This document shows positions 1,905-13,572 of a DNA stretch of 25,330 nucleotides, one piece after another (the first letter of the stretch is position 1; each line of letters begins with the position of its first letter). The DNA comes from a virus, in IMG/VR virus record IMGVR_UViG_3300037042_000410, positions 1 through 25,330 of that record. The stretch is one strand, 5' to 3'. The notes under the pieces were generated by a model. The model saw nothing but the letters and a program-made list of their open reading frames with translations. It ran no database searches and was not told the origin of the DNA. Both the position numbers and the translations under genes were made by a program.

Positions 1905-2951
1905 TCAGAGAACAGGATTGAGTTTGTTATCATGAACATGCAGCATGAAATCTCGTCTTGCCAGATTAAAATCATGATCTGCCATCATATTGATGAGTTC
2001 ATCTATAGTAATCTTTGGTTCCCATCCTAATTTCTCTTTTGCCTTTGTTGAATCTCCAAGAAGTTGATCAACTTCTGCTGGACGATAATATCGTTCATCA
2101 ACTTCAACATAATCTAGGTAATTCATACTATATCTTGCAAATGCCTTCTCACAGAATTCACGAACAGTGATCATCTTTCCAGTTGCAATCACATAGTCAT
2201 CTGGAGTTTCTTGCTGAAGCATCAACCACATTCCTTCAACATAATCTCCCGCAAATCCCCAGTCTCGTAGTGCATCAAGATTACCCAGATAGAGTTTCTT
2301 TTGAAGTCCATGATATATTCTACCAACCGCTCGGGTAATCTTACGAGTTACAAATGTTTCTCCTCTTCTTGGACTTTCATGATTAAATAAGATACCAGAA
2401 GAGGCATGAATGCCATAGGATTCTCTATAGTTTATAGTCAACCAATGTGCATAAACTTTTGCACACCCATACGGAGATCTAGGCCAGAATGGAGTATTCT
2501 CTTTTTGTGGCACTTCCTGTACCTTACCAAACATTTCTGAACTACTTGCCTGATAATATCTAATTTTATTACCAGTATTGTGTTCATATAGTTTTATCGC
2601 TTCTAGAACATTAAGAGTCCCAATTCCTACAGTTTCACCAGTATATATTGGGATATCAAATGAAACCTTAACATGACTTTGAGCTCCAAGATTATACACT
2701 TCATCTGGATGATATGTATTAATCAATTTTTCAACACTGTTATAATCAGTCAAATCTCCATAATGAAGATGGAATGTCTTATTATATACTTCTGAATTTT
2801 GAATTAAATGCTCAACACGAGCTGTGTTGAATGATGAAGATCTGCGAATAATTCCATGCACAACATATCCCTTGGACAATAGTAAGTCTGCAAGATATGA
2901 ACCATCTTGACCCGAAACACCAGTAATTAACGCTACTTTATTTTTTGACAT
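1905..2951 (-). CDS. gmd: GDP-mannose 4,6-dehydratase
   Basis: 348 aa, the usual length of the family. It converts GDP-D-mannose to GDP-4-keto-6-deoxy-D-mannose using bound NADP(H). Seen: Rossmann motif [10 protein letters not shown] (residues 11-20), the arginine-rich [14 protein letters not shown] segment (36-49), the catalytic ASSSEMFG (135-142) with Glu139, and Tyr161/Lys165 in YGCAK. These are the hallmarks of GMD rather than of general epimerases. The start ATG has AAGGA upstream. An 89-base gap separates it from the methyltransferase gene upstream, and 25 bases from the GT2 gene downstream. Its product is the substrate for the ColD-like enzyme encoded at 3605-4762, so the two probably act in one pathway. 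No residue looks damaged. Confidence 0.95.
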
Positions 2952-3604: not shown

Positions 3605-4762
3605 TTAAATACTATCGTTTACAAGATTTGCTATAAAAATTATTTCTTCTTCTGTCATATCTGGATTGTTTGGTAGATACAATCCATAATCGTGAATTTT
3701 ATCTGAAAATGTGAATGTCTGTTTTCCATATCTTTCATAAAAGAAAGGCTGTCTTGATATACTTCCAGCAATCAATGGACGGCATTCGACTTGATTTTCT
3801 GTAAGGGTTTCCGCGATCTTTGATGAATTAGGATGAATTATTGGATATGCAAAATTAGAAACAAATTCAAATTGACTAATATCAATTTTCCAATAATCAT
3901 TATTGATTAACTTATCATATATTTTTAAGTTAGCATATCTTGAATTACAGAAACCATCTAATTTTTTAAGTTGATTAATTCCGATAACTGCCTGTAGATC
4001 CGTTGATCTTAAATTGAATCCAGGATGATAAAAAGTATACAAATTTCTAAAATCATCCACATCGTACTTTAATTGTAGATCTCTACGAGCAACTTCATCC
4101 AGATCTCTCGACCATCCATGGGATCTAATACTCTTGAAAATATTATATAATTCCTGATCATCTGTGCAGATGAATCCACCCTCTATGGTTGAAAAATGAT
4201 GACCATAGTATGTACTGAATGAAGATGCTAATCCAAAGGTTCCTGTCTTCTTACCCCCAACAGTAGTTCCCACACTCTCGCAAGAATCTTCCAGTAAGAT
4301 TACATCATATTTTTCACAAATTTCTCTAATACATTTCATGTCGTTTGGAAATGCCAGTGCGTGAACAATCATTACTGCTGCTGGATTCTGCTCTTGGCAT
4401 ATCTTTTCTAACTGATTTGTATCTATTCCCAAATTATTTGGATCAGTCTCACAAAGAATTGGTTCAAGTCCCAATTGAATAGCAGGAGCAACTGTGGTAA
4501 CCCAAGAAACGCAGGGGAATACAATCTTTTTATTTTTCAATCTTCCAGAAAGAATAAGTCCATAGAATATGGCAAGATTTGCTGAAGATCCAGAATTGAC
4601 AAATACCGAATACTTACAACCTAACCAATTACTCCACTGCTGCTCAAATTCAATTGTTTTTGTTCCTTTTGTGAGTCTTGGATTTTCCCCCAACCAAGAT
4701 ATCAACTGAGCAATATCATTACGATCTATCGTATCTTTTACTAAAGTGATCGGTAAATTCAT
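3605..4762 (-). CDS. PLP-dependent DegT/StrS-family sugar 3-dehydratase, ColD-like
   Basis: 385 aa, a full-length DegT/DnrJ/EryC1/StrS fold. Asp159 in LLEDSCES would bind the PLP ring nitrogen. At the usual Schiff-base lysine, six residues before the EGG motif, there is His188 (SFSTYYGHHFSTIEGG, 181-196 region). In this family His at that place is the mark of 3-dehydratases such as GDP-4-keto-6-deoxy-D-mannose 3-dehydratase ColD, which remove the C3 hydroxyl using PMP formed from glutamate. Aminotransferases keep Lys. With GMD in the same operon, the likely substrate is GDP-4-keto-6-deoxymannose and the product a 3,6-dideoxy sugar; this is inference. The start overlaps the stop of the gene before it (TAATG). 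An inactive or differently acting homologue remains possible. Confidence 0.85.
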   Translation of the reverse strand: MNLPITLVKDTIDRNDIAQLISWLGENPRLTKGTKTIEFEQQWSNWLGCKYSVFVNSGSSANLAIFYGLILSGRLKNKKIVFPCVSWVTTVAPAIQLGLEPILCETDPNNLGIDTNQLEKICQEQNPAAVMIVHALAFPNDMKCIREICEKYDVILLEDSCESVGTTVGGKKTGTFGLASSFSTYYGHHFSTIEGGFICTDDQELYNIFKSIRSHGWSRDLDEVARRDLQLKYDVDDFRNLYTFYHPGFNLRSTDLQAVIGINQLKKLDGFCNSRYANLKIYDKLINNDYWKIDISQFEFVSNFAYPIIHPNSSKIAETLTENQVECRPLIAGSISRQPFFYERYGKQTFTFSDKIHDYGLYLPNNPDMTEEEIIFIANLVNDSI

Positions 4763-5906: not shown

Positions 5907-6777
5907 TAATTTCCTCATCAATCATAACGAATACATTTTGCTCGCATCCATAATCACTAGTATGCCATAGTTGTTTAGCATGTTCAGGTAAATTGTAATC
6001 TGTTAAAGTAATCCAATTGACTTCTTTTTCTGAAGAACCAAACACAATATATGTTTTATCTTTATTATATAAATTCTCTGGGACATGTGTGAAGCAAAAC
6101 GGACCACTACCTCTACCAACAATTATATCACAGAAAAGAGATATATAAGAAATTTCATTTAAATTTGATTTTGTTTTGTCTGCAATTAATGAGTTTGCAT
6201 CTATAATATTAGTGAGATTGGTTTGAAATGGTTGTGTAATATAGAATATACATGATGGATGTTTTTGCGCAAGAGATTCAATGATTGGAACGAAATCAAA
6301 GTTTCTTGCTTGTCCAGAAATAACAGGACCATTACAAATTAATATATTTTTATCTTTTCTTAAATTTATAGATTCAATATTATATTTGCTATAATCTATG
6401 GATGGAATATATTGCAATTCATCTAATAATTCCAATCCCAATATATTTGCAAAGTCTTTAAACATATTATAATTAGTTTTAATAGTACATCCATCTGGTT
6501 GCAACCATTTATGGTGAGCCTGTCCAATCCAGGTTCCAAACATCAATACAGGATCTTCAAAGTAAACTCCTATAGAACTTGGGTTTGTTTGAGTTGTAGG
6601 CAAGTTTTGCAAAAATGTCAAAGGTAAGTCTCTAAGAAGATATGGACATCTAATATGCGTGTAGGTTGAGGTAAATGGCAATTTTTGACAAAAATATTTT
6701 ACAAACTCTCTGCTGTAATGCAAATCGCCATTACCAAAAAAATTATAATACGCTACATGTCCTATATTAATATTCAT
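5884..6777 (-). CDS. Putative GT-B glycosyltransferase, GT9/heptosyltransferase-like (tentative)
   Basis: 297 aa, no signal peptide or membrane segment. The N-terminal part (NINIGHVAYYNFFGNGDLHY) has a glycine-rich loop after strand 1. The C-terminal half has ILICNGPVISGQARNFDFVP, a strand IFYITQP, and ISLFCDIIVGRGSGPFCF. The last resembles the place where GT9 heptosyltransferases have their donor-binding D-S-G-P motif; here it reads GRGSGP. A heptosyltransferase would fit the heptose genes in the same run, but the identification rests on fold-like patterns only. ATG 6777 overlaps the previous stop (ATGA). The protein could also be a cluster-specific protein of unknown function. Confidence 0.5.
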   Translation of the reverse strand: MNINIGHVAYYNFFGNGDLHYSREFVKYFCQKLPFTSTYTHIRCPYLLRDLPLTFLQNLPTTQTNPSSIGVYFEDPVLMFGTWIGQAHHKWLQPDGCTIKTNYNMFKDFANILGLELLDELQYIPSIDYSKYNIESINLRKDKNILICNGPVISGQARNFDFVPIIESLAQKHPSCIFYITQPFQTNLTNIIDANSLIADKTKSNLNEISYISLFCDIIVGRGSGPFCFTHVPENLYNKDKTYIVFGSSEKEVNWITLTDYNLPEHAKQLWHTSDYGCEQNVFVMIDEEINAKFGSR

Positions 6778-7658
6778 TGTAAACCATATTCCTTAAATAA
6801 ATTATCTGTATCTAGAAGATCATAACGCCAGTCTTTTGATTGAAAATAATCAAGTTTGCTTTTCAATAATTCTTCTGTAATATCACACCATCGCTCAACA
6901 ACAAGAATTGGAAAAAATTGAGCAAAGTATCTATTTGAGGCATTATCCTCAACTACTGGTATTGCACCCAAATACAAAGATTCCCACATTCTATGAGACT
7001 CTTTGCTATTTCCTGGTGGAGACAAAACATAATGATGTTCCTGAATTTCTCTAAAATATCCAGATTTTAATTGTGAGTTTTCTTCTGAATAATTTGCAAC
7101 AGTACATTGGTTGCCCAAATTGTTACTAATTATGTTGAGTATTTGAGGTCTTTTGTGTATATTTGTTCCTAATTGGAAATTAGCATACATTAATTTTGTT
7201 CTAGGAACATCAACTACAACATCCGCCAACGATGAAGCATTGGTTACTCCCCTACCCCAAGGGGGTGGGACTCCAATAGGAATTGGTATCATTGTATTAT
7301 TTGCTACTTCTGCATTTTGCGAATACCATTTTTTAAAATTCTTTGGCATAAATTTTGGAACAGCATAAAACACATTTAAATGATCATTAAATACTGTAGT
7401 TCCATTTGGATCGGTGAGATTATCGTCATCTCCTGTTATAATGATTAGATCTTTTAAGGAGGTAGATTCTATCATAGTGAATAGCTGATTAGCAGCCCTA
7501 GTCCAACAGTATATTTTCATACCATTCTTCAAATTGGATAAATCTAGATTGGATGTATATCCATACCTTGCCGCATCAGGTCGCATGATATAGTAATCAC
7601 AGCGAATGCAGTAATTAATACAAGATAATATCGTATTCGGAATATACTTTTGCAACAT
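6774..7658 (-). CDS. Exostosin-like (GT47-type) glycosyltransferase
   Basis: 294 aa. The best sign is the C-terminal donor-binding segment at 210-239: HYVLSPPGNSKESHRMWESL followed by YLGAIPVVEDN. It has the order S-P-x-G...S-x-R-x-W-E-x-L-x-x-G-x-I-P-V-V that I associate with exostosin-type GT-B domains. The middle contains TKLMYANFQLGTNIHKRP, which precedes that domain in similar proteins. It is soluble as far as can be seen. The start touches the epimerase stop (TAATG) and the end overlaps the GT9-like gene (ATGA), so it belongs to one translationally coupled block. Donor and acceptor are unknown. Confidence 0.68.
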   Translation of the reverse strand: MLQKYIPNTILSCINYCIRCDYYIMRPDAARYGYTSNLDLSNLKNGMKIYCWTRAANQLFTMIESTSLKDLIIITGDDDNLTDPNGTTVFNDHLNVFYAVPKFMPKNFKKWYSQNAEVANNTMIPIPIGVPPPWGRGVTNASSLADVVVDVPRTKLMYANFQLGTNIHKRPQILNIISNNLGNQCTVANYSEENSQLKSGYFREIQEHHYVLSPPGNSKESHRMWESLYLGAIPVVEDNASNRYFAQFFPILVVERWCDITEELLKSKLDYFQSKDWRYDLLDTDNLFKEYGLQ

Positions 7659-8557
7659 TATAATTGACTCCTAACCCAATCCAATATGGAAACTGTTGGA
7701 CTCCATCCAGTTTTTATTGAAAACTTCTTATTGTTGCAAAGATTGTTCAATACTTCACTTTTTCGTTTTGAAACAAAAATTATATCAGATGATATTGTTT
7801 TTGCAAGATCTATTACCGAAATTTCAGTAGAAGAACCAATATTAAATGGGGTAGCAGTTGCTATCTCGGGAAACTCAGACTGCAAAGTCATTGATAAAAA
7901 GTTGGCGTGAACAACATCCTTAACATAAATAAAATCTCTTTTTTGTGTTCCGTCACCCACCACTGTCAGTGGTGTATTTGATTTCCGTTGATTTAAAAAT
8001 ATACCAGTAACCAAAGCATATTGTCCAGTGCATGGTGCTCGCTCACCAAATACATTAAAATAACGCAATATTGTTCCTGGAACACCATATAAGGTATTAA
8101 AATTTCTTATCAATAATTCTGCTGCGTATTTTGTAGAAGCATATGGATTGAGACAATCTTCCTTATGGTCTTCGGTTATCGGTAATATATTTGTAAGACC
8201 ATACACGGAAGAAGTTGATGAGAAAATTATTCCCATTCCGTGTTCCCTACAACATTCCAAAACCGAAAGAGTCCCACCAACATTTGTATCAAGTGCTTTC
8301 TTAGGATTTTGTGTTGCCAATTGAAGTCGTGATTCTGCTGCGAGATGAAATACAAATGAACACCCCCCTGACACTTCCATCAATCTTTTGGTATTAGTGA
8401 CATTAAATTTATAGTTTTTTGCTTTTTTATTAAAATAAAATTGTTCATTATTTGCAGAACAATCATCAACATTAATGACTTCATAATTGTTGTCTACAAG
8501 ATAATCAATTAGATGACTTCCAATGAATCCAGACCCACCAGTTACAAGTACTTTCAT
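7658..8557 (-). CDS. NAD-dependent sugar-nucleotide epimerase/dehydratase (GalE-like SDR)
   Basis: 299 aa, a complete extended SDR. Seen: GGSGFIGSH at 7-15, an acidic residue for NAD ribose binding at the end of strand 2 (VDD, 30-32), HLAAES at 71-76, SSTSSVYG at 113-120, and Tyr139/Lys143 in NPYASTKYAAE. GDGTQKRDFIYVKDVV is the usual C-terminal substrate-site segment of UDP-glucose 4-epimerase relatives. It should act on a nucleotide sugar, most likely a 4-epimerisation; a dehydratase or decarboxylase role cannot be ruled out. ATG 8557 overlaps the methyltransferase stop (ATGA). Confidence 0.85.
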   Translation of the reverse strand: MKVLVTGGSGFIGSHLIDYLVDNNYEVINVDDCSANNEQFYFNKKAKNYKFNVTNTKRLMEVSGGCSFVFHLAAESRLQLATQNPKKALDTNVGGTLSVLECCREHGMGIIFSSTSSVYGLTNILPITEDHKEDCLNPYASTKYAAELLIRNFNTLYGVPGTILRYFNVFGERAPCTGQYALVTGIFLNQRKSNTPLTVVGDGTQKRDFIYVKDVVHANFLSMTLQSEFPEIATATPFNIGSSTEISVIDLAKTISSDIIFVSKRKSEVLNNLCNNKKFSIKTGWSPTVSILDWVRSQL

Positions 8558-9186
8558 TTAATCAACCTTGCTGTGAATACAAATCCTAGATCGCCTTCGC
8601 TAACTGGACGAGGCAGATGGGTAAAGATATATTCACCCATCTCCATTCCATGGTTCTTGAACAGTTCTGCCCATTTGGTTTTTGGGAATATGGAAACATG
8701 AGTTCCTGATGGACAAACATGGGTTGCAACACTTCCACAGAAAATACCAGTATCCTTCAAATGCTTCTTGATGTTTTCAAAGAGCATAGGTAGTTTTTCT
8801 TCGGGAATATGCTCAAGCACTTCCCACATTTGAATGTAATCAAATAACAGATGTCCAGTTTCATCATCTACAGAGTATGGTTCAGTGATATCACAAAGAA
8901 ATAAATTTTGATTGAACAAAATCTCCCAGTTGTGTTTTCCCGTACCACGGAAAACATTACTGCTTCCCTCCAATCCAACAGCAAGATCACCCAACAAATG
9001 ATGATCGACAATTATCTGCCCACCAGCACAACCAAGATCCATGGCATTCATCTTGGAATCATTAAAATGCTTCTTTACTTCTTTAATATAATGGATGTTA
9101 CTATTGTTGTCGCGAACGACTCCAAATGGATACAAATGATCTAGACTGTCTGTTGCAATATTTTTATTTGTTGTTACTTTAATCAC
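8554..9186 (-). CDS. Class I SAM-dependent methyltransferase
   Basis: 210 aa. SAM loop NAMDLGCAGGQ at 47-57; an acidic post-motif region; WEVLEHIPEEKLPMLFENI as the motif around the active-site strand and helix; then HLKDTGIFCGSV and an end strand FVFTARLIK. These are standard Methyltransf_11/23 features. The substrate is unknown; from context, a sugar nucleotide or glycan. The start is GTG at 9186, eight bases inside the end of the HAD-nucleotidyltransferase gene, with GGAAA upstream; no better ATG exists before residue 46. Its end overlaps the epimerase start by four bases. Confidence 0.78.
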   Translation of the reverse strand: MIKVTTNKNIATDSLDHLYPFGVVRDNNSNIHYIKEVKKHFNDSKMNAMDLGCAGGQIIVDHHLLGDLAVGLEGSSNVFRGTGKHNWEILFNQNLFLCDITEPYSVDDETGHLLFDYIQMWEVLEHIPEEKLPMLFENIKKHLKDTGIFCGSVATHVCPSGTHVSIFPKTKWAELFKNHGMEMGEYIFTHLPRPVSEGDLGFVFTARLIK

Positions 9187-9904
9187 GATTCGATTTCCAA
9201 TCTGTAAAAAGTTCTGTTATTTGTCTCTTCAATCCAGTAGTAGAATATCCATGATTTCTGGATACAAACATCACCGAGATGTTTAAATGATCTGCTGTAT
9301 ATGATTTTCCTTCATAGTCATCACCTATGAATCTTCTGTCATATTCACCGACCTTGAGTAAATCATACAATTCGCTTTCGGTCTTATATGTTTTTATTTT
9401 ATCAATATATTTTATAGATGAAAGTATTTCTATTCTTTCAGCAAGAGTGTGTACTAGTTTCATCTTTGATCTTTCCACTGAAGGATCTTCGTGTAATAAA
9501 ACCGTCAAATGATCACAATTTTCTTTTGCAAATTTAAACATCCTGCAATATCCAGGATGTATAAGATCAAATGCTCCAGCAAGAACACCGCGAACACCAC
9601 AGTTGCGAATTCTCCACTCCAATGCATTTATCGCCTTATCGTCAATCACAACATCATAGGTTGGTTTGACATTCATTATCAGTTTATGATGCTTCAATCC
9701 CCACGATTGCAATTGTTCTGCGGTGACAGCAGTCCAATCAATACCACTGGAAGATCCTCTTCCTGTAAAAATTAGAATTGTGTTACCTTTATCGAAAAGA
9801 GAGTTTACCTTTTCAATTGCTTTAGTTAATGGTTTGGCATTTCTGTAGTTGCCATCAGTCACAGACTCACAAAGAGTCCCGTCAAGATCAAAACAATAAA
9901 TCAT
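9179..9904 (-). CDS. HAD phosphatase-nucleotidyltransferase fusion (heptose activation, GmhB/HldE-C-like)
   Basis: 241 aa with two domains. Residues 1-100 form a small HAD phosphatase without a large cap: DLDGT at 6-10, FTGRG at 46-50, Lys80 and DD at 88-89. The N-terminal pattern (FDLDGTLCE...NYRNAKP) is close to capsule phosphatases of the EcbF/BcbF type. Residues 105-241 are a cytidylyltransferase-fold nucleotidyltransferase: GVLAGAFDLIHPGY at 106-119, LAERIEILSSIKYID at 154-168, and YSTTGLKRQI at 220-229. The second His of the HxGH motif is Tyr119, which is unusual. Placed after GmhA and an HddA-like kinase, it could do the last two heptose steps: removing the 7-phosphate and attaching the nucleotide. 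Another sugar or polyol phosphate is possible. AAGG precedes ATG 9904. Confidence 0.8.
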   Translation of the reverse strand: MIYCFDLDGTLCESVTDGNYRNAKPLTKAIEKVNSLFDKGNTILIFTGRGSSSGIDWTAVTAEQLQSWGLKHHKLIMNVKPTYDVVIDDKAINALEWRIRNCGVRGVLAGAFDLIHPGYCRMFKFAKENCDHLTVLLHEDPSVERSKMKLVHTLAERIEILSSIKYIDKIKTYKTESELYDLLKVGEYDRRFIGDDYEGKSYTADHLNISVMFVSRNHGYSTTGLKRQITELFTDWKSNRD

Positions 9905-9912
9905 ATATCACC

Positions 9913-10428
9913 TTAAATTATTGAATGTAAAAATATCTCATGCACACATTCAACTACACCGTAATTACTATTATTAATCCAAAAATTTATTAATGCTTTA
10001 TCTGATGACAAAGTCTTCAATTTATTGTTTTCGGAGAATCCAGTCAAAGATATAAAAGGTATAGATTGTACGATGCAATAGTTGGCACAGTTAACTATGT
10101 TAGCAGAATTTCCAGAAGAACTTATCAATATAACCAGACCATTATGCTCTGCAAACTCGACAAGATATTGTTTGAAGGCATTATCATATCCATAGTCATT
10201 TGCATAGCAGGTGAGTCTTGGGGCATCAGAAAAACACAATGTTGGTTTCTTTAATGCCTTGGTATAATCTTCAGCAATATGCGCTGCGATTGCATTGCTT
10301 CCACCATTACCCAATATTATAATCTTACCCTTCGTATTAGTCACGATGTCGGAAAGATCGTATACTTGATTAAGTTTTATGGAATCAATAGCATCACGAA
10401 TTGATTTTAAAAAAGTACTGCTAGTCAT
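9913..10428 (-). CDS. gmhA: SIS-domain sedoheptulose 7-phosphate isomerase, GmhA-like
   Basis: 171 aa, close to the usual GmhA size. The phosphosugar-binding SIS signature is clear: KIIILGNGGSNAIAAHIAED at about 35-54, and LVILISSSGNSANIVNCANY further on. GmhA turns sedoheptulose 7-phosphate into D-glycero-D-manno-heptose 7-phosphate, the first heptose-specific step. The choice of GmhA among SIS proteins rests on the GNGGS...H..ED pattern and on the neighbours: the HddA-like kinase directly upstream (ATGA overlap) and the HAD-nucleotidyltransferase eight bases downstream. It seems intact. Confidence 0.82.
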   Translation of the reverse strand: MTSSTFLKSIRDAIDSIKLNQVYDLSDIVTNTKGKIIILGNGGSNAIAAHIAEDYTKALKKPTLCFSDAPRLTCYANDYGYDNAFKQYLVEFAEHNGLVILISSSGNSANIVNCANYCIVQSIPFISLTGFSENNKLKTLSSDKALINFWINNSNYGVVECVHEIFLHSII

Positions 10429-11363
10429 ATTAAACGCCTTACTCCACTTTTGCTTATGGATATTTTTCTAAATCCATCAGGAACTTCCGTTCCTTTTTCA
10501 AAGAACACAAGAAAGAATCCACCATTACCAGCACCACACAGTTTACTTGCTACACAATTATGTAGGGAAGAAATCCAGGTGTCCAATTCAACCAACAATT
10601 TATTGGTCATTGCACCTTTAGACATTTTCTTCTTTTCTTGCCACCCAATGCGAATAAGATCCATAAATCCATAATAATTTTGAGTCAAAATCATCTTCTC
10701 TGCTTCACCAACCAAAGGATTCAATACATCTTCTTCTGGACATACTACACTCTTTAGCACTTCAGTAGAACTGCGAGTTATTCCAGTATAGTAAAGATAC
10801 ATGTCAAAATGATTAAATATTTCTGTTGGTAAAAATGTATACTTTGGATAATCCTCACCCTTTACGAATTCTATCTTCTTGAATCCACCAACACAACATC
10901 CAAAAATATCTTGCATACCCAACAATGGATTTATTTGTTTTTCTAAATCATGTGCTTGTCTGCCACATTCTATTTCGCTGATCTCTGTATTTTTGAATTC
11001 ATTCAATGCATATGTTAGAGCACAAGAATAGGAAGACGATACTGCCAATCCAGATCCATGTGAAAATATATCACTGGTTAAATGCACCGAACATGGTTTT
11101 GTATTGTTTTCTTTTAAACAAAGACGAACAAGATCATTTTGAATTTGATCAATTCTGTTTACTTCCTCACGAATTGAATAGTTTACAATGTATTTTTTAT
11201 CTAGATTATTTCTACCAAGAACATCTTTGTAAATAGAAACATAGGTATATAAATCTGGAGTAAACGATATAACAGAACCTGCGTTGTGTCTATTTAAATA
11301 GACATCCAAATCGCTCCCACCACCAACAAAAGAAATGCGCACGGGACACCTTACTGTTATCAT
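10425..11363 (-). CDS. hddA: GHMP-family sugar kinase, HddA-like (D-glycero-D-manno-heptose 7-phosphate kinase)
   Basis: 312 aa from ATG 11363, chosen because it makes a four-base ATGA overlap with the preceding stop and because VRCPVRISFVGGGSD (4-18) is the normal family N-terminus. A TTG further upstream has no support. The ATP-binding GHMP loop is GSGLAVSSS at 103-111. LLGMQDIFGCCVGGF gives the second substrate-site motif, and KLCGAGNGGFFLVFF the C-terminal glycine motif. HddA adds a 1-phosphate to heptose 7-phosphate in the GDP-heptose branch; a fucose or other sugar kinase is the main alternative. GmhA directly follows. Confidence 0.8.
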   Translation of the reverse strand: MITVRCPVRISFVGGGSDLDVYLNRHNAGSVISFTPDLYTYVSIYKDVLGRNNLDKKYIVNYSIREEVNRIDQIQNDLVRLCLKENNTKPCSVHLTSDIFSHGSGLAVSSSYSCALTYALNEFKNTEISEIECGRQAHDLEKQINPLLGMQDIFGCCVGGFKKIEFVKGEDYPKYTFLPTEIFNHFDMYLYYTGITRSSTEVLKSVVCPEEDVLNPLVGEAEKMILTQNYYGFMDLIRIGWQEKKKMSKGAMTNKLLVELDTWISSLHNCVASKLCGAGNGGFFLVFFEKGTEVPDGFRKISISKSGVRRLI

Positions 11364-11980
11364 TGATGTTCTCTTGTTTTTTCGTATTCCCAAGCAGCAG
11401 GACTAATACCAATCCAAACTTTATACCGTGGAATCATATTTGCCATATGATATGCTCCAGATCCAGCATAATTTATTAGTTCTTTCTTGCGCAAAGGAAT
11501 ATTTGTACTTTGATACAAATCAATCAAGGTACAATGTTCAGAACAGAGATAATTTGGATCTTTTCCTTTTATTTCATTTATTGTTTGCCATTCCTCTAGA
11601 AATTGAATTGAATTTTTAGTATTATTGAAATAAATGAAACCAGCATGTGGAGTGATTCCGTCGTGGTGTCTTATGCAAACTGCAATATCGTATTCTGCAT
11701 CTAGATTTTCAAATTCATCTAACTTTTGTTGGACAACGCAATCAGCATCAATCCACACAACAGAATCATTTAATTCTTTCATCTTTTTCAATAAAAAAGA
11801 TGGTTTAATCATATTTAATTTTAGATAACTAGAATCTAAACCCAACCCATCAAAATCTATATAATCAAACGAATACTTATACCCACAAGTTGCGAGTTGT
11901 TTTTCTAATCTAATTGAACAGTCTGTGTAATAAGACGATACTTCTGGGTGTTTATCATAATAATAAGATACAAAATGCAT
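11360..11980 (-). CDS. Small GT-A-like DxD glycosyltransferase
   Basis: 206 aa, soluble. It has SVVWIDADC at about 73-81, with the DxD metal and nucleotide-sugar motif (DAD 78-80) after a hydrophobic strand; KPSFLLKKM before it; and HAGFIYFNNTKNS later, as in nucleotide-diphospho-sugar transferases. It looks like a diverged paralogue of the enzyme encoded at 12048-12716, with the same strand-DxD plan and the same K-P-x-F-x-L segment. GAG lies about eight bases before ATG 11980. The 67-base gap upstream holds a methyltransferase remnant. Donor and acceptor are unknown. Confidence 0.65.
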   Translation of the reverse strand: MHFVSYYYDKHPEVSSYYTDCSIRLEKQLATCGYKYSFDYIDFDGLGLDSSYLKLNMIKPSFLLKKMKELNDSVVWIDADCVVQQKLDEFENLDAEYDIAVCIRHHDGITPHAGFIYFNNTKNSIQFLEEWQTINEIKGKDPNYLCSEHCTLIDLYQSTNIPLRKKELINYAGSGAYHMANMIPRYKVWIGISPAAWEYEKTREHQ

Positions 11981-12051: not shown

Positions 12052-12716
12052 CCTTTGGTGTTTCCTACTAAATTAAATTTTACAACTGCATCATTGAGTC
12101 CCATTTCTCTCAATGAATTTTCTTTGGATTTTCCATCTGCGATACCCATAGTTATCATGGGTTTAACACCTTCTGGGAATAATCTTCCAGGCCATATGGC
12201 ATATGGATGTCCAAGCATACCAATTCGCATCTTGGATAAAAATTCAGGAAGAACTTCACTCATCAAAACTTCATGATCAAATAATTTCACACCCAAATTC
12301 ATTTCATTAAATTCACATCGTTCAACCCAGTAAGTTAAACACTGTATGGTATTTTCTGTATAATTTATATAAATTGGTGATGCTTTGGGCAAATTGGGAT
12401 TCACATCTGGAGGATTGCCTTGATATGCAAATGCCATATCGCAGTTGTCTTTCAGTGTATCAAATATAGAAAGTTCAGCATGAATCAAAGAATCCACATC
12501 CATCCACACAAATGGTCGTTTCTTTTCTTCTAACACAGAAAGAATAAATCTTGGTTTAGCAAGACAATTTAAACGGTATTCGCCACGCGAAGGTAATTCG
12601 CGAATATCGTGTGGAATATTATTCTCATTGCAATTAATTCTCAGACGACGCGCGTGATCGCTATAGTATGTACGATCATCTATATCACAATAAAAGGATA
12701 CAATTTCAGTTTTCAT
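12048..12716 (-). CDS. GT-A-like DxD nucleotide-diphospho-sugar transferase
   Basis: 222 aa with no membrane segment. RPFVWMDVDSLIH at about 67-79 gives a DxD motif (DVD 73-75). LAKPRFILSVL precedes it, and SPIYINYTENTIQCLTYW follows as the acceptor-side segment. HPYAIWPGRLFP near the end may close the active site. It probably transfers a sugar in the cytoplasm. It begins within the last 11 bases of the GT10-like gene, and its stop overlaps the remnant ORF that follows. It is similar in plan to the neighbour at 11360-11980, suggesting duplication within the cassette. Confidence 0.68.
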   Translation of the reverse strand: MKTEIVSFYCDIDDRTYYSDHARRLRINCNENNIPHDIRELPSRGEYRLNCLAKPRFILSVLEEKKRPFVWMDVDSLIHAELSIFDTLKDNCDMAFAYQGNPPDVNPNLPKASPIYINYTENTIQCLTYWVERCEFNEMNLGVKLFDHEVLMSEVLPEFLSKMRIGMLGHPYAIWPGRLFPEGVKPMITMGIADGKSKENSLREMGLNDAVVKFNLVGNTKG

Positions 12717-13545
12717 TGATTAAGTCAAATAATTGATCATCGGCATTGACGAGTTCTTTAACACGATTAAAGTTATCTCTTACCGCATCAATTTTACTTT
12801 CATATAGTTCTTTTGTTAACATTCGTGGATCAAAATCTGAAGTTAATTGTATAATTCCATCTTTGTTGAAGATGTCTCCAATGTTAGGAGCTCCCCAATA
12901 TACTGGTATTGTTCCCGTAGCAAAACAATCAGTTAACTTCTCGGTGTAGTAGGTTTCATACTTATCATTTTCAATAGTAATGGAGAACATGTAATCATTA
13001 AGTGCTTCTGATTTATCGCCCCATGGTATTCCTGGACTTAATTTTTTAGATCCCATTACTCCACCATAGAGGTCTAAAGAATCTTTGAATCTTTCCGCAG
13101 TCAAATGTCTAAGTTGGTGTCCAAAAGTCGTTGTCTTTTCAGAAGCAATCAATGATACTAATTTAGATTTTGAGAAGATATCTTGATTCTTGATCCAAGG
13201 AAGATTGCTTCCTGCAAGACAGAATTTAATATTTGATGCTTTTTCAAGCCATTGCTTATCAGATACAAAGATCACATCATATGCAGCAGCAATTTGAACA
13301 ATGTTTTGTTCCCAAACATCAACTGGAACATACCATGCATGAAAAATAGCACGGGATTCTGCAATCCATGCTATTTTCCTCTCTCCTGGTTTTTTGATAT
13401 ACCCCATTCCAGATATTATAGCAGAATCTATAAAGACCTTGATTGGTTCATCTGATGAAGACCAATCGAATTTTTGTGGTTTATAGTCTGAGCATCCAGA
13501 ATAATTTGTTGAAAATCCAGCACCAATTGCTTGCATTTTTTTCAT
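12706..13545 (-). CDS. Fucosyltransferase-like (GT10-type) glycosyltransferase
   Basis: 279 aa from ATG 13545, chosen because GGAG lies ten bases upstream; the longer frame from GTG 13563 lacks a site. The C-terminal signature at 187-218 runs MFSITIENDKYETYYTEKLT and then DCFATGTIPVYWGAP. It matches the GT10 alpha-1,3-fucosyltransferase pattern F-x-x-x-x-E-N...Y-x-T-E-K...G-x-x-P-V-x-x-G. The fold is GT-B and the donor would be a GDP-deoxy sugar. That fits the GDP-mannose-derived sugar made by GMD and the ColD-like enzyme, though the link is inference. It is the first gene of the carbohydrate run, 27 bases after regA. Confidence 0.78.
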   Translation of the reverse strand: MKKMQAIGAGFSTNYSGCSDYKPQKFDWSSSDEPIKVFIDSAIISGMGYIKKPGERKIAWIAESRAIFHAWYVPVDVWEQNIVQIAAAYDVIFVSDKQWLEKASNIKFCLAGSNLPWIKNQDIFSKSKLVSLIASEKTTTFGHQLRHLTAERFKDSLDLYGGVMGSKKLSPGIPWGDKSEALNDYMFSITIENDKYETYYTEKLTDCFATGTIPVYWGAPNIGDIFNKDGIIQLTSDFDPRMLTKELYESKIDAVRDNFNRVKELVNADDQLFDLINEN

Positions 13546-13572
13546 AATATAAAATCTCCACACTTATATATG

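Follow-up and report, generated by a model that had tools for sequence, protein, structure and literature searches.

A conserved phage gene cassette with a probable role in nucleotide-heptose formation

A minus-strand glycan cluster of a T4-like phage contig harbors genes for a GmhA-like isomerase, an HddA-like GHMP kinase, a HAD-nucleotidyltransferase fusion, and an epimerase-type SDR, a combination that recurs in dozens of viral contigs and in some Prochlorococcaceae genomes. A phage-borne cassette providing a nucleotide heptose is the best explanation of this arrangement and, in our judgment, probably the correct one.

Genomic setting of the cassette

The window, i.e., the whole analyzed stretch of 25,330 bases, is an IMG/VR virus record carrying T4-like myovirus markers (gp23, homologues of gp46/gp47, regA, and gp44/gp45-type genes). 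Its gp23 has its nearest relative in cyanophage gp23 (~55% identity). The glycan cluster is bounded by regA and a collagen-repeat tail-fiber gene and includes, together with the latter, the following features:

1-636: collagen-repeat tail-fiber gene, cut by the contig end, beside the glycan cluster
1905..2951, minus strand: GDP-mannose 4,6-dehydratase (PF16363, 4.2e-143)
3605..4762, minus strand: DegT/DnrJ-family sugar aminotransferase (PF01041, 1e-63)
6774..7658, minus strand: exostosin/RXYLT1-like glycosyltransferase, downstream of the cassette (RXYLT1_C, 2.6e-8)
7658..8557, minus strand: NAD-dependent epimerase-type SDR, fourth core gene (Epimerase, 4.9e-52)
8554..9186, minus strand: SAM-dependent methyltransferase, optional cassette member (Methyltransf_23, 1.3e-11)
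9179..9904 (stop included), minus strand: HAD-nucleotidyltransferase fusion ORF, 241 aa (CTP_transf_like, PHROG 1238)
9182..9598, minus strand: TagD-like nucleotidyltransferase domain of the fusion, residues 103-241, HPGY variant (1coz, TagD profile)
9602..9904, minus strand: HAD phosphatase domain of the fusion, residues 1-101, AfhF/RB69ORF051c type (9iqw, phiR1-RT g052)
9913..10428, minus strand: GmhA-like sedoheptulose 7-phosphate isomerase, 171 aa (TIGR00441, PRK00414)
10425..11363, minus strand: HddA-like GHMP sugar-1-kinase, 312 aa (NF049969; alternative TTG start at 11393)
11360..11980, minus strand: probable glycosyltransferase directly upstream of the kinase (weak Glyco_transf_8 and Nucleotid_trans matches, below cut-off)
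12706..13563, minus strand: fucosyltransferase-like GT10, upstream (Glyco_transf_10, 1.2e-8)

Kinase, isomerase, and fusion occupy three consecutive ORFs lying nearly end to end. The kinase reads from an ATG at 11363 to a stop at 10425 and overlaps the isomerase (10428-9913) by 4 nt, while a gap of 8 nt separates the latter from the fusion (9904-9179). The glycosyltransferase-like gene upstream overlaps the kinase by 4 nt; downstream, the methyltransferase overlaps the fusion by 8 nt and the SDR overlaps in turn by 4 nt. In consequence of these overlaps, the run reads as operon-like.

All three proteins possess intact catalytic motifs and match the Pfam families GHMP_kinases_N (kinase, 7.6e-9), SIS_2 (isomerase, 1.5e-9), and CTP_transf_like (nucleotidyltransferase, 5.1e-9), with none of them reaching a curated equivalog cut-off. 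In a Pfam scan of 20 window proteins, neither the GT9 heptosyltransferase family nor an HddC-type nucleotidyltransferase domain (PF00483) was matched. Elsewhere in the cluster, the GDP-mannose dehydratase (1905-2951) and the DegT aminotransferase (3605-4762) constitute a GDP-perosamine-like pair.

Recurrence in viral contigs and bacterial chromosomes

A search of viral contigs with the single kinase protein returned one relative and a search with the kinase alignment 239, the best 80 of which were kept; these 80 comprised 53 distinct loci with 3.3 kb or more available downstream. Beside the kinase, the isomerase was present in 51, the nucleotidyltransferase in 52, the HAD in 49, and the SDR in 45 of the 53 loci. 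Isomerase, HAD, and nucleotidyltransferase occurred jointly in 48/53 and together with the SDR in 44/53. Because the search relied on the kinase alone and yet 48 of the 53 contigs retain the block, chance is ruled out. The three adjacent genes described in a preceding sequence-only reading were thus confirmed by ORF coordinates, family matches, motifs, and block conservation. As the SDR represents the fourth gene of the conserved unit, the product of the other three is probably an intermediate. A methyltransferase homologue was located beside or inside the cassette in 13 of the 53 loci.

By a script count, 44 of the 49 loci with a HAD encode it as a fusion with the nucleotidyltransferase. In four of the five non-fused calls both halves share the same frame, the counted stop probably being situated where the alignment overruns the end, and only L131 showed a true split into separate genes of one cassette. 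Other variants comprise a nucleotidyltransferase fused to GmhA (L096) and a 458-aa ORF uniting an HddA-like kinase with an HPGY nucleotidyltransferase, followed by an SDR (L194:4992-6368 in LR756511, a 595-kb phage). In L027, a GmhA-like SIS protein, a transaldolase (283.8, above the curated cut-off of 281.95), an HddA-like kinase, the fusion, and the SDR form one run. Transaldolase is an enzyme forming sedoheptulose 7-phosphate.

The fusion was also found in 5 of 300 Prochlorococcaceae genomes, with the four-gene order in all five. One copy resides on a 1.94-Mb chromosome contig and another one on a 0.58-Mb contig, both adjoined by glycosyltransferase-like and sugar-phosphate-transferase-like genes as judged by eye. 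MAG contigs binned as Actinomycetota likewise carry the cassette, with a binning error being possible. The combination of enzymes, initially regarded as an unusual mix, is therefore to be seen as a recurrent cassette. Its gene content, motifs, conserved order, fusions, and occurrence in bacterial polysaccharide regions are direct observations.

One of the Prochlorococcaceae genomes, G214, contains a fusion with a degenerate HAD half, having lost the T, K, and first-D motif residues, and encodes a GmhB above its cut-off ~3 kb away in the same region. GmhB exceeds this cut-off in 14 of the 300 genomes and was not found in tests of the four remaining cassette genomes. The GmhB beside a degenerate HAD, albeit a single case, points at heptose-1,7-bisphosphate.

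Isomerase and kinase

Of the NCBIfam models, GmhA scored highest for the isomerase and HddA for the kinase. The isomerase obtained 64.9 bits (8.2e-18) with the GmhA model TIGR00441, below the curated cut-off of 209.45, and 5.5e-18 with the GmhA model PRK00414, and all of its top 12 PDB profile matches are phosphoheptose isomerases. Its residues H50, D54, E160, and H168 are invariant in the family. Relative to the active-site set of E. coli GmhA, which we take to be H61, E65, Q172, and H180, both histidines are kept, whereas E65 and Q172 are replaced by the likewise invariant D54 and E160 (C-terminus read by hand, ungapped, after pairwise alignment, the automatic alignment being shifted there).

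Among all GHMP models, the HddA model NF049969 scored best for the kinase (68.3 bits, 8e-19), below a curated cut-off of 600. The GHMP motifs and Asp152 are invariant in the family. A structure comparison supported the HddA-type assignment, with the WcbL heptokinase 4usk as top fold (TMq 0.82) and the FKP fucokinase 9iip close behind (TMq 0.78). In a kinase tree, the cassette kinases form their own clade (96/98), its sister group holding the HddA references and excluding GalK and ThrB; the joining forks are weak (85/39, 83/44) and the branches long. Copies of cells and viruses are interleaved; the well-supported branches require at least three changes, which makes an exchange likely. By analogy, a GHMP kinase implies an alpha-1-phosphate, unlike the HldE branch, whose heptoses are beta-configured.

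Phosphatase domain of the fusion

The HAD half is matched by PHROG 1238 over residues 1-95 (1.3e-22) and conserves its catalytic residues (DxD, T47, K80, D88-D89). The nearest solved relative is AfhF of phage HY126 (PDB 9iqw; 1.8e-13, 36% identity), a D-arabinose 1,5-diphosphate phosphatase according to the PDB entry title. A further relative is phiR1-RT g052 (33% identity, 2e-19). No GmhB model appeared among the 16 matches at E-values up to 0.1. Judged by its sequence, the domain is AfhF kin and not of the GmhB type. This kinship supports a role as sugar-1,n-bisphosphate phosphatase, without fixing the sugar.

As a result, a pentose pathway has to be considered a real rival, in which D-arabinose or another pentose would be nucleotide-activated starting from ribulose 5-phosphate, perhaps for DNA modification. 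It would parallel RB69-type phages, in which this HAD, together with a SIS isomerase and a protein containing a nucleotidyltransferase, is encoded near regA and gp43 (PMC6024577), and the cluster in the window also starts beside regA. We nonetheless regard this pathway as unlikely. The isomerase is of the GmhA type, the KdsD model scoring 13.8 against 65 bits, and has no substantial resemblance to the phage arabinose 5-phosphate isomerase. The kinase is HddA-like, while the counterpart protein of phiR1-RT has a GT-A-type nucleotidyltransferase and lacks a GHMP domain. Moreover, the transaldolase and GmhB associations point to a C7 sugar, cassette copies are found in bacterial polysaccharide regions, and a hydroxymethylase was not identified in the window.

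Several phage genes for AfhF-type HAD phosphatases bear the erroneous label "phosphoheptose isomerase" (L002:11068-11388, L191:6001-6366, PHROG 1238), so that heptose claims built on this label need checking. In two other loci, such a HAD precedes an RpiB sugar-phosphate isomerase fused to a cytidylyltransferase-like domain (L032:6318-7163, L056:6311-7156), followed by a class II aldolase in L056. Standing alone, the HAD adjoins a GmhA-like SIS protein and a NeuB-like synthase in L031, L044, and L048 as well as in L111 and L112 (Prochlorococcaceae), which suggests a nonulosonate-type pathway.

Nucleotidyltransferase domain and SDR

The nucleotidyltransferase reads HPGY in place of HxGH, with the tyrosine present in 80 of 82 aligned rows. 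As HAGH forms occupy the same slot in L155, L140, and L184, the tyrosine form probably still works. The STTR5 motif is absent, the sequence being RNHGYSTT compared with (F/L)XXGRSTT of promiscuous HldE/HldC members. Profile comparison of the family yielded 73 bits for TagD, 69 for ECT, and 43 for HldC, and fold comparison placed TagD 1coz (Z 17.6) ahead of HldC (15.5). The proposed cytidylyltransferase fold of HldE consequently holds as far as the fold is shared, yet in profile and structure TagD is nearer, and the HldE-type reading is weakened. With TagD and ECT being closer than HldC, CTP is the leading guess for the base, at about even chances.

The same pathway operating with ATP, i.e., a formation of ADP-heptose as by HldE with the SDR acting as an HldD-like 6-epimerase, is a less probable option. 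On single sequences, the HldE domain II model TIGR02199 (46.8 bits; cut-off 181.5) is nearly level with the TagD model TIGR01518 (49.3 bits; cut-off 165.4, HxGH absent), and for L200 even slightly ahead (54.5 vs. 54.1 bits). In addition, a PHROG match is annotated as heptose adenyltransferase, and the SDR matches the HldD model TIGR02197 at 103.5 bits. This score, however, is far below the cut-off of 274.6, and the kinase is not a PfkB-type HldE kinase. Besides the profile and fold comparisons, R216 corresponds in the alignment to the Arg of the TagD motif RTEGISTT, which is missing from the HldE sequence as read by eye.

Marine Gammaproteobacteria and a flavobacterium encode stand-alone HPGY nucleotidyltransferases on their chromosomes (L088:7992-8396, L095:7986-8390, L083:7977-8399); in most of these marine bacteria gmhA was not found. 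As a clue to the substrate, their neighbors (lapB-like, otsA-like, and methionine-synthase-like by eye) in the marine Gammaproteobacteria and Bacteroidetes, along with the mostly absent gmhA, gave no answer.

The SDR (7658..8557) carries the motifs SSTSS[VAI]YG and PYxxSK. For an SDR acting as a 4,6-dehydratase, a TDE/TSE-like active-site motif would generally be expected. A 4,6-dehydratase was considered, as LegB is the best NCBIfam model, but rejected on the basis of this motif, which is not TDE/TSE-like.

Proposed pathway and significance

For the preferred heptose reading, we infer the substrate, each reaction, the base, the epimerized carbon, and the final glycan. The isomerase would convert sedoheptulose 7-phosphate of the host into an aldoheptose 7-phosphate, to be phosphorylated by the GHMP kinase at C1, in alpha configuration by homology with HddA. 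In the fusion, the distal 7-phosphate would then be removed by the HAD half and the remaining 1-phosphate be activated by its nucleotidyltransferase partner, with CTP as the most likely cosubstrate. Subsequently, the SDR would epimerize the nucleotide sugar, and the glycosyltransferases of the cluster would incorporate it into a glycan on the surface of the infected cell. The sequence-only reading had considered three genes sufficient for a complete pathway from sedoheptulose 7-phosphate to a nucleotide heptose. The four enzyme types indeed suffice on paper and the context favors it; completeness is nevertheless a deduction from proteins all scoring below their equivalog cut-offs, and the SDR has to be added as a fourth core gene.

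Heptose is the best-supported reading because GmhA and HddA are the best families, nucleotidyltransferase fusions to GmhA or HddA exist, one variant includes a transaldolase, and G214 contains GmhB. The linkage of the nucleotidyltransferase by three different fusions, to HAD as the rule and to GmhA and HddA, counts in its favor. On the other side are the scores below equivalog cut-offs, the isomerase replacements D for E65 and E for Q172, and the pentose bisphosphate as substrate of the closest characterized HAD relative. Similarly, the stand-alone HPGY nucleotidyltransferases of marine bacteria mostly lacking a detected gmhA, the GmhB swap being a single case, and the missing GT9 match among the 20 window proteins scanned weigh against heptose.

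Regarding its destination, the sugar might be attached to the virion (e.g., to the collagen-like tail fiber at 1-636) or to phage DNA instead of the host surface. The cluster abuts the collagen-repeat gene and DNA glycosylation by phages is known; we still consider this improbable, as bacterial chromosomes harbor the cassette as well, surrounded by polysaccharide-type genes, the GMD and aminotransferase genes give the cluster an O-antigen look, and a change of the host surface has been argued for pelagimyophages (PMC7029224). That the cassette is nonfunctional passenger ("stuffer") DNA, a possibility raised for cyanophage LPS clusters in general (PMC3037559), is highly improbable in light of catalytic motifs kept across ~45%-identical proteins in dozens of contigs, the conserved order, and the overlapping genes.

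Tentatively, the heptose cassette may represent a hitherto undescribed route to nucleotide heptoses in aquatic phages and picocyanobacteria, in which an HddA-type alpha-kinase feeds a HAD-HPGY fusion making CDP-alpha-heptose prior to SDR epimerization, leading to heptose on hosts with LPS reported to be heptose-free. Since the LPS of marine Synechococcus (WH8102, CC9311) was reported without heptose (PMC4515613), such a cassette in cyanophages and some Prochlorococcaceae would predict a surface sugar that is foreign to, or was unrecognized in, these hosts. It further offers a defined, assayable enzyme set in which the active-site change from HxGH to HPGY calls for an explanation.

Comparison with known systems

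The capsule pathway of Campylobacter jejuni (PMC10680097) resembles the cassette in its four reaction types, GHMP (alpha) kinase, GmhA-type isomerase, and clustered genes. Its last enzyme, however, is the GDP-forming guanylyltransferase HddC and its GmhB is encoded outside the capsule cluster, whereas in the cassette an HPGY protein of TagD fold takes the last place, its fusion partner being a HAD from a different subfamily. With the ADP-heptose pathway (GmhA, HldE, GmhB, HldD), it shares the isomerase type, the nucleotidyltransferase fold, and the SDR as last enzyme; it differs by a GHMP instead of a PfkB kinase, by the absence of HxGH and STTR5, and by an SDR far below the HldD cut-off.

The arabinose pathway of RB69/HY126-type phages (AfhF) follows a corresponding logic of isomerase, bisphosphate phosphatase, and nucleotidyltransferase, with a homologous HAD and a similar genome position in T4-like phages. 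In contrast to the cassette, it involves a pentose, lacks a GHMP kinase, and serves DNA, as the DNA of RB69 is arabinosylated (PMC6024577); its isomerase and nucleotidyltransferase are unrelated or distant. phiR1-RT holds a matching arabinose gene set, with an isomerase and a GT-A nucleotidyltransferase protein unrelated to those of the window.

Tang et al. (Science 2024) reported that viruses can encode functional NDP-heptose enzymes, some nucleotidyltransferases making CDP-heptose (PMC11461863, PMC11573728). As far as these accounts go, they concern beta-heptoses and describe the phosphatase as absent in viruses; the fused AfhF-type HAD is thus a plausible candidate, outside the GmhB family, for the phosphatase of which the survey, as summarized in PMC11461863, found none in viral NDP-heptose pathways. 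LPS clusters are known from cyanophages (PMC3037559) and pelagimyophages (PMC7029224). Closest to the window, genes 204-207 of cyanophage SynMITS9220M01 (MT408532) are the same four genes in the same order with 45-51% identity. Three of them were already called heptose-related LPS genes in the 2020 announcement (PMC7378029), while the fusion was annotated as hypothetical protein and the phosphatase/nucleotidyltransferase step not named. As far as the searched literature shows, the conserved four-gene unit, its likely phosphatase, the TagD-like HPGY character, and the chromosomal copies are new.
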